A DNA stretch of 60,516 nucleotides from Candidatus Falkowiibacteriota bacterium (lineage in GTDB: Bacteria; Patescibacteriota; Patescibacteriia; Patescibacteriales; UBA12465), in the NCBI GenBank assembly GCA_026396805.1, contig JAPLVZ010000003.1:1-60516 (forward strand), written 5' to 3'. The translations under genes were made by a program, and so were the position numbers. Of the stretch, positions 59,298-60,516 are shown one piece after another. Position 1 is the first letter of the stretch; each line of letters opens with the position of its first letter. The notes beneath the pieces were generated by a model, which saw only the letters and a program-made list of their open reading frames with translations, had not been told where the DNA came from and did no database searches.

Positions 59298-60293
59298 TCA
59301 TAATATAATGTTAACCAATCCGGCCCTTTTACTTAATTTATAGGCATTCCCATGTTTTAGCAGTGCCGAGTAGGCAGCCCGAGTTGCCAGTTCATTATTT
59401 TGTTCAATTCTTTTCAGCATCCGGTGCTTGGTCGTTGTTCTCAAAACCCGATGATTCATAAATTGTACCCAACCTAAAAAATCAACACCGCCGGCTAAGG
59501 TTTTGAAAAAAGTTTTCTTGGGATGTAAAGACAATTTCAAACGTTCATTTAAAAATGTTTCCAATTTCGGCCGCAAGGCGATTAGCTCTTCTTTATTCTC
59601 GCTCAAAAACACAAAATCGTCGGCATAACGGATATAATATTTTATTTTCAAAACGCGCTTAACAAACTGATCAAACTCATTCATATAAACATTAACCAAT
59701 AACTGCGAGGTTAAATTGCCCAGAGGCAGACCCGTCCCCGGCTTTCCATCCGTATTAAAACTACCGATTACCTGTCCGAACAGCCATAACAAATCTGGAT
59801 TATTTATATATTTAGCAAGAATATCTTTCAAAATTTTATGATCAATGCTCGCAAAAAATCTCCTAATATCGCATTTAAGTATCCAGACGGTCCTTTGGTT
59901 ATTTTTAGAAACCTGATCACTGAATTTCGCCAAACGACGAACGGCGCGATGAGTGCCTTTGTCCAGACGACAAGAATAAGAATCGTAAATAAACTGTCGA
60001 TCAAAATACTGATAGGTTGACCGATATAACAGGTGATGAAGCAGACGGTCGCGGACAATGGCCTTGTGGATATTTCTCGGTTTGGGGTCGGATATATTAA
60101 AAGCCTGATAGTCGCCGTGCTGATAATTTTTTTCTTTTAAATCGCGGTAAAGATTAATAATATTATCCATTAACCGGCCCTGAAAATCAACCACATCGCG
60201 GCGCTTCCTCTTGCCGGTCAAAAATTCTTCCCAGGCCAAAAGCAGGTTAGCCGTGGTAATGATGTCTTCATATTTTTTAATAAATTTTTTCAT
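59298..60293 (-). CDS. Reverse transcriptase of the diversity-generating retroelement type
   Basis: A 331-residue reverse transcriptase. Motifs: CDIRRFFASIDHKIL (141-155, first catalytic Asp), GLPLGNLTSQLLVNVYMNE (188-206), YYIRYADDFVFLS (219-231, catalytic YADD) and DFLGWVQF (271-278). The LGNLTSQ form of motif 4 is the hallmark of the diversity-generating retroelement clade, in which error-prone copying at template adenines mutates a target gene. I chose the ATG at 60293 (MKKFIKKYED). A longer frame from 60371 would run antisense through the Avd-like gene. No intron domain or integrase is present. It has no accessory gene on its own strand. The usual partner is divergent. Confidence 0.9.
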   Translation of the reverse strand: MKKFIKKYEDIITTANLLLAWEEFLTGKRKRRDVVDFQGRLMDNIINLYRDLKEKNYQHGDYQAFNISDPKPRNIHKAIVRDRLLHHLLYRSTYQYFDRQFIYDSYSCRLDKGTHRAVRRLAKFSDQVSKNNQRTVWILKCDIRRFFASIDHKILKDILAKYINNPDLLWLFGQVIGSFNTDGKPGTGLPLGNLTSQLLVNVYMNEFDQFVKRVLKIKYYIRYADDFVFLSENKEELIALRPKLETFLNERLKLSLHPKKTFFKTLAGGVDFLGWVQFMNHRVLRTTTKHRMLKRIEQNNELATRAAYSALLKHGNAYKLSKRAGLVNIIL

Positions 60294-60302
60294 AATAAAC
60301 TT

Positions 60303-60516
60303 ATGAGTACAATTCTCCGCCCTCCAATCGTACTCGTTAAAACTAAAGAAGCTTACAGCCTTTGGTTTCATGCTCTCGCGGATTTTCCCAAGATTTATCG
60401 CTATAATCTAGGCGGAAAAATTGAAGGCTGTTTTTTATCTCTCCTGGAAAATACATTTATCACAGCCTACCTGTCCGGCGAAAGAAAATCGGCTCAACTA
60501 TCAATGGCTATTTTAA
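60303..60516 (+). CDS. avd: Avd-like four-helix accessory protein, truncated by window end
   Basis: A plus-strand frame starts at 60303 and stays open to the edge (71 codons), beginning MSTILRPPIVLVKTKEAYSL. The segment FPKIYRYNLGGKIEGCF followed by LSLLENTFITAYL resembles the Avd/four-helix-bundle accessory proteins found with diversity-generating reverse transcriptases, in which a basic pentameric helix bundle binds the enzyme and template RNA. Only 9 bases separate it from the divergent reverse transcriptase start. The recognition is by pattern from memory. The C-terminal half lies outside the window. Confidence 0.7.
   Translation, partial: MSTILRPPIVLVKTKEAYSLWFHALADFPKIYRYNLGGKIEGCFLSLLENTFITAYLSGERKSAQLSMAIL

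Follow-up and report, generated by a model that had tools for sequence, protein, structure and literature searches.

The right edge of the window (the whole stretch of 60516 bases analysed here) carries a diversity-generating retroelement (DGR) of a clade whose members come from Patescibacteria and related viral contigs, and its template repeat (TR) probably lies within a separate structured non-coding RNA that would act as a scaffold, a reading to which we give a probability of roughly 80%. Covariation for the structure and sequence prediction for the terminator show a TR that would be held, on the strand of the reverse transcriptase (RT), between a 5' domain and a closing helix. This structured RNA is the main find and the notable part of the element, and it could not be seen in the window on which the preliminary description was based. 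The window comprises bases 1-60516 of a 70953-base contig, in a genome of 827600 bases whose sampled relatives are Patescibacteria; coordinates above 60516 are contig coordinates, and their numbering is continuous with that of the window. The protein genes and repeats of the locus are as follows:

59298-60293, minus strand: DGR reverse transcriptase, 331 aa, with the LGNLTSQ motif (RVT_1, E 7.5e-21)
60294-60302, no strand: gap of 9 bases between the divergent start codons of RT and avd
60303-60516, plus strand: 5' part of avd, antisense to the RT; the gene runs on to contig 60699 (bAvd matches)
Contig 60718-60832, minus strand: TR, 115 nt (repeat pair with the VR)
Contig 61151-61792, minus strand: target gene, 213 aa (ORF with the VR at its 3' end)
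Contig 61161-61275, minus strand: variable repeat, VR (repeat pair with the TR)

The preliminary description had proposed a DGR at this edge, with an RT carrying LGNLTSQ and an Avd-like gene 9 bases away on the opposite strand. Both genes are as it had them, and the RVT_1 match, the motif and a TR/VR pair that differs at adenines only confirm the element. At the place of LGNLTSQ, RTs usually carry QGxxxSP. The RT is 32% identical to BPP-1 brt, the profile of its relatives finds 8ub7_A as the top PDB match by a wide margin (E 7.7e-52) and the RT tree groups it with BPP-1-type RTs; together with the motif, these results place it in the DGR lineage. An RT of the retron family is ruled out by a score below cut-off against NCBIfam retron_St85_RT (59.9 bits, cut-off 235) and by a weaker PDB match to a retron RT (E 3.8e-7 versus 7.7e-52 for 8ub7_A). 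A group II intron was likewise rejected (TIGR04416, 129 bits against a cut-off of 300; no intron RNA in the Rfam scan).

That the plus-strand gene is an Avd, as had been suggested, was established across a scaffold gap (13 N, contig 60517-60529) that falls inside avd at the window's end. Because this gap cuts the gene, the ORF from 60303 matches Pfam bAvd weakly (E 0.0027), and the second half of the profile matches avd beyond the gap (E 1.4e-7). Orthologues score 44.6-53.6 bits, over the Pfam cut-off of 40, and one matches NCBIfam DivGenRetAVD with E 2e-18, but at 66.5 bits against a cut-off of 80; by the bAvd and DivGenRetAVD matches, the Avd accessory protein is thus present. A 15-mer, CAATGGCTATTTTAA, is duplicated on both flanks of the 13-N gap, which is probably an unmerged overlap; avd is split into two frames there. 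The genome has a single DGR RT, a single TR and a single target, which on the minus strand run in the order target, TR, avd (antisense) and RT, and on the far side of the target lie genes that, from reading their translations, we take to be rpoC and rpoB.

The window ends ~200 bases short of the TR and the target gene, which had been predicted to lie just beyond 60516 and are indeed there. Extension of the contig to the right, where repeats of about 100 bases differing mainly at adenines had been expected, yielded the 115-nt pair: TR and VR differ at 15 positions, 15/15 of them TR adenines and 0 elsewhere. The VR forms the last ~38 codons of the 213-aa target ORF, and the variable residues alternate with conserved valines, an alternation that would fit residues lying as on one face of beta strands. 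No Pfam domain matches the target. In an AlphaFold2 model (15 sequences, mean pLDDT 82), the confident part runs strand, helices, four strands; Foldseek found no PDB match with E <0.001, and in a second look with VIA-align C-type-lectin domains came top of the list, at only Z 3.4-4.9. The modelled target may thus have a divergent form of the C-type-lectin fold, which is usual but not universal among DGR targets. A terminator-like hairpin just 3' of the target gene (contig 61077-61093) is conserved in the nearest relatives and possibly doubles as the stem-loop adjoining the IMH site. Comparison of the window with G357 for within-population variation gave no alignable DNA.

The inverted avd is not peculiar to this genome. 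A search with the RT returned 80 loci, nearly all from Patescibacteria, and avd is antisense to the RT and adjoins its start in 69/69 cellular loci where it was found; it is missing from 11/80, mostly because the contig begins near the RT. The RT and avd start codons of these relatives usually lie within a few tens of bases of each other, some of them overlapping; the median distance from the end of the TR to the avd stop is 18 nt. On viral contigs, 13/13 related loci (RTs 43-56% identical) share the layout, while in more distant viral loci with a detectable avd the gene is co-directional and 5' of the TR, as in BPP-1. In the RT tree every antisense-avd member falls on one side of a single split (support 0.98). 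As judged from these loci, the antisense avd is a fixed arrangement of the whole RT clade and not an oddity of the window's locus, so the statement that avd is usually co-directional holds for BPP-1-type elements and fails for this clade. In the DGR literature searched, which covers part of the key surveys, neither the inverted avd nor the RNA is mentioned, and an earlier description is possible; in a text search of one survey (PMC8144416), accessory genes, avd, orientation and opposite strand go unmentioned.

From the head-to-head starts, the preliminary description had deduced promoters overlapping the neighbouring gene and expression that may be mutually exclusive. The overlap is plausible, with slight support. 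Synonymous conservation is raised over codons 1-16 of the RT (about 60246-60293; O/E about 1.3), a stretch within which the avd promoter would be expected, and a promoter-like TTCATA-18-CATAAT inside the RT start ends 6 bases before avd, in a count of such matches at or below chance expectation. Nothing here shows or calls for mutually exclusive expression, and the predicted terminator on the TR strand (see below) would separate the transcript of the template RNA.

Directly upstream of the TR, in the window's locus and in its relatives, lies a structured RNA of ~230 nt. Read in the RT sense, it consists of hairpin A, hairpin B, the 5' strand of a helix P0 with the motif NUUGG, and a helix P1 that encloses P2 and P3, followed by the TR; 3' of the TR come the P0 3' strand and then an intrinsic terminator. 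In the window's locus these elements are placed as follows:

Contig 61019-61042, minus strand: hairpin A (alignment and covariation of the upstream hairpins)
Contig 60967-60990, minus strand: hairpin B (alignment and covariation of the upstream hairpins)
Contig 60928-60945, minus strand: P0 5' strand with NUUGG, with conserved G at 60928 and 60927
Contig 60832-60927, minus strand: RNA domain P1-P2-P3 (model R1, 90.1 bits; covariation)
About contig 60709-60717, minus strand: P0 3' strand (pairing with the P0 5' strand)
Contig 60686-60708, minus strand: terminator of the template RNA (intrinsic terminator prediction)

When the window was aligned with its four nearest relatives, a strongly conserved block stood out 5' of the TR amid unconserved intergenic DNA. 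RNAalifold on 54 loci returned three helices, P1 (12 bp), P2 and P3, with compensatory changes in 19/21 pairs. Across P1-P3, 94.6% of cells are paired versus 71.6% after shuffling, and double-sided changes number 311 versus 85 when shuffled and 33-90 with the partners slid; sliding the partners by 1-3 columns abolishes the covariation signal. In nearly all loci the end of P1 falls about -2 to +7 nt from the start of the TR, mostly at 0-4. P1 was initially placed where complementarity adjoining NUUGG was best, which could inflate the figures for this helix alone; no such choice was involved for P2, P3 or hairpins A and B, and the borders of P1 met the TR independently. The two hairpins share a loop motif, GRYYANGRYU, and an outer stem, and in these upstream hairpins 96.3% of cells are paired versus 62.2%, with 367 double changes versus 114. 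Across the tests of this study, kinship among loci inflates some of the controls. Because G-U cells in the RT sense far outnumber A-C cells (165 versus 20, and 215 versus 15), selection acts on the RT-sense RNA. The Rfam scan of the window's element up to E 10 gave no match beyond three at chance level, and ten relatives gave none at gathering score; no Rfam identity fitting, the RNA is, by these searches, previously uncatalogued. Promoter matches upstream of the RNA showed no position preference across loci, and those of the window occur at chance level.

The RNA would be closed by P0, in which the bases before P1 (about 14 nt plus NUUGG) pair with the last bases of the TR, CGMAA, and with those directly after it. 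Native duplexes average -6.80 kcal/mol versus -4.67 with loci swapped (0/10000). In a fixed ungapped register, 76.1% of positions are paired versus 60.2% in swaps, with 81 double changes versus 29, and this signal persists within sequence groups; the same register in 13 further loci taken from the RNA model gave 84.6% versus 79.1% (4/2000). The UU of the motif has an AA partner in 98-100% of loci. Although real, the P0 signal falls far short of that of P1-P3, and related loci inflate the swap tests. A shorter AGUUG/CAACU pairing as the sole closing helix fits the window's group and fails in the majority ACUUGG group, and was dropped for the longer P0. In the commonest type (ACUUGG with CGCAACUC), P0 has internal mismatches beside the G proposed below as the priming site, and this conserved G could be structural instead.

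An intrinsic terminator follows the TR in 56/59 loci versus 4/59 shuffled sequences, beginning ~10 nt past the TR, and recurs in 21/23 further loci versus 2/22 co-directional DGRs. It overlaps the 3' end of avd. With a terminator beside the TR, the template RNA would therefore be a separate transcript that stops before reading through avd; most likely, on this prediction, the template RNA ends there and is distinct from the RT mRNA.

The covariance model of the structured RNA, R1, matches 63/80 RT loci. Most of the others have too little upstream DNA; two (L013 and L066) have enough, and these are also without avd. Used alone on 380 genomes of the phylum, R1 matched 70. Among the R1 loci listed other than the window's, a TR/VR pair lies beside the match in 27/29, and among the listed loci every detectable avd is antisense to the TR. 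R1 has no match in BPP-1 or in co-directional viral DGRs, so that its absence outside the clade is judged from viral contigs and BPP-1; it scores below threshold in 3/13 antisense-avd viral loci, where similar elements are visible by eye.

How such an RNA could serve retrohoming is suggested by its layout. RT and Avd would bind P1-P3, possibly along with the loops of the hairpins, and P0 would bring the last bases of the TR (CGMAA) beside the conserved G at its inner end. Reverse transcription may then start at this G, where, as in retrons, a 2'-OH or else an end close by in cis would probably serve as primer. The TR would be copied with errors at adenines, cDNA synthesis would stop at P1, which would thus set the 5' border of the TR, and the mutated cDNA would replace the VR in the target gene. 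We hold this retron-like form, in which the RNA's ends are paired, the 5' domain holds RT-Avd and the conserved G primes the template cDNA by its 2'-OH, more tentatively than the scaffold itself, and rate its chances at a little under even.

Other roles for the RNA are improbable. Like a riboswitch- or attenuator-like leader that regulates RT expression and is no RT scaffold, it has the RT downstream on its own strand and an intrinsic terminator after it; such a leader is nevertheless unlikely, since the TR sits inside the structure, between P1 and the P0 3' strand, and P1 comes within a few nt of the TR. Moreover, G074 has a full RNA-TR-VR unit at a distance of ~44 kb from its RT, and in G257 two RNA-TR-avd units accompany a single RT. 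Slightly less probable still is a mechanism of the BPP-1 type, with the scaffold 3' of the TR and antisense to avd and the 5' RNA secondary. In BPP-1 the structured spacer 3' of the TR recruits bRT-Avd and primes the cDNA (PMC12875486; PMC8867640), and the distance of about 400 nt from TR to RT would leave room for one here. Yet the RNA is ended by the terminator within a few dozen nt of the TR, R1 finds neither BPP-1 nor the co-directional viral DGRs, and avd shows an even level of synonymous conservation (O/E about 1.0-1.2) apart from the 3' end overlapped by the terminator, where it is the highest of the gene (O/E 1.29-1.34); on this flat profile a BPP-1-like spacer dual-coded antisense to avd was rejected. 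Finally, that the inverted repeats act as DNA, as cruciforms for homing or integration, is very improbable: a stem-loop adjoining the IMH site of the target does aid homing in BPP-1 (PMC12875486), but the helices here flank the TR and not the VR, and in the RT sense G-U is retained at 8 to 14 times the frequency of A-C, which a cruciform would not favour.

The scaffold RNA proposed here sets the element beside two known systems. It resembles the BPP-1 DGR (mtd, avd/bbp7, TR, brt) in its RT family, its Avd, its adenine-only TR/VR differences and the position of the VR at the 3' end of the target. In BPP-1, however, avd is co-directional with the RT and 5' of the TR, whereas here it is antisense and 3' of the TR; the BPP-1 scaffold lies in the spacer 3' of the TR, which folds to recruit RT-Avd and provides the adenine for priming (PMC12875486; PMC8867640), and it is read into the RT, whereas here the scaffold is 5' of the TR and the RNA ends, as tested at the sequence level, at the terminator. 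Retron ncRNAs carry msr 5' and msd 3', and their paired 5' and 3' ends form a stem that includes the priming G or stops just short of it (PMC6868368). The RNA of this locus is like them in its paired ends, in the conserved G at the inner end of the stem and in the order of structured part, template and downstream RT; it differs in that its RT is DGR-like and not retron-like, its template is diversified into a target gene, and its conserved motif is NUUGG and not AGC, with no Rfam match.

DGRs are unusually common in Patescibacteria (PMC8144416), and DGR clade 2 of Roux et al. 2021 is cellular, restricted to Patescibacteria/CPR and has targets without recognisable further domains (PMC8144416). 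The window's DGR agrees with clade 2 in host group, cellular context and a short target without a Pfam domain, an assignment made by host and description and not by the tree of Roux et al. The DGR mechanism is known from one phage system with the scaffold 3' of the template, and here a large clade would have it 5'. If the RNA works in the retron-like way, DGR templates exist in two opposite layouts, with the scaffold 3' in BPP-1 and 5' in this antisense-avd clade. Two open questions become testable with this clade, namely how cDNA is primed in these DGRs and how DGR and retron RNAs are related. The boundaries of the RNA define a minimal RNA for reconstitution, and R1 provides a search tool for such elements that is independent of protein genes.

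Several variants were observed across the clade. Within the genus (G525-G535, G357) the RT is patchy: the window's genome has it, as do fewer than half of the sampled genus mates, a pattern that suggests frequent loss or transfer. In two RT loci a second avd copy lies further off on the other strand. Five loci (L006, L008, L081, L126 and L136) have two targets per TR, one of those of L008 being downstream of the RT, and in four (L022, L128, L132 and L133) the VR is inverted relative to the TR. L005 has RNA, TR, avd and RT, and no VR-bearing target was found nearby. The RTs of L013 and L066, for which no avd, upstream RNA or TR/VR was found, may be solitary.

The matches to R1 add further arrangements. 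L196 (G257:C10) has one RT and two RNA-TR-avd units ~6 kb apart, whose TRs both match the same VR. The entry for L113 (G074:C4, RNA at 129138-129265) and L195 is a complete RNA-TR-VR unit without RT or avd, the one noted above for G074. The only RT detected in that genome is of a more divergent type and has its own TR, and it is possible that the unit acts in trans, as RNA-TR units apart from an RT may do more generally. In L093 (G284:C7), a strong RNA match is followed by a truncated TR in a genome without RT, and the locus has the look of a DGR that has decayed and whose target is frozen.
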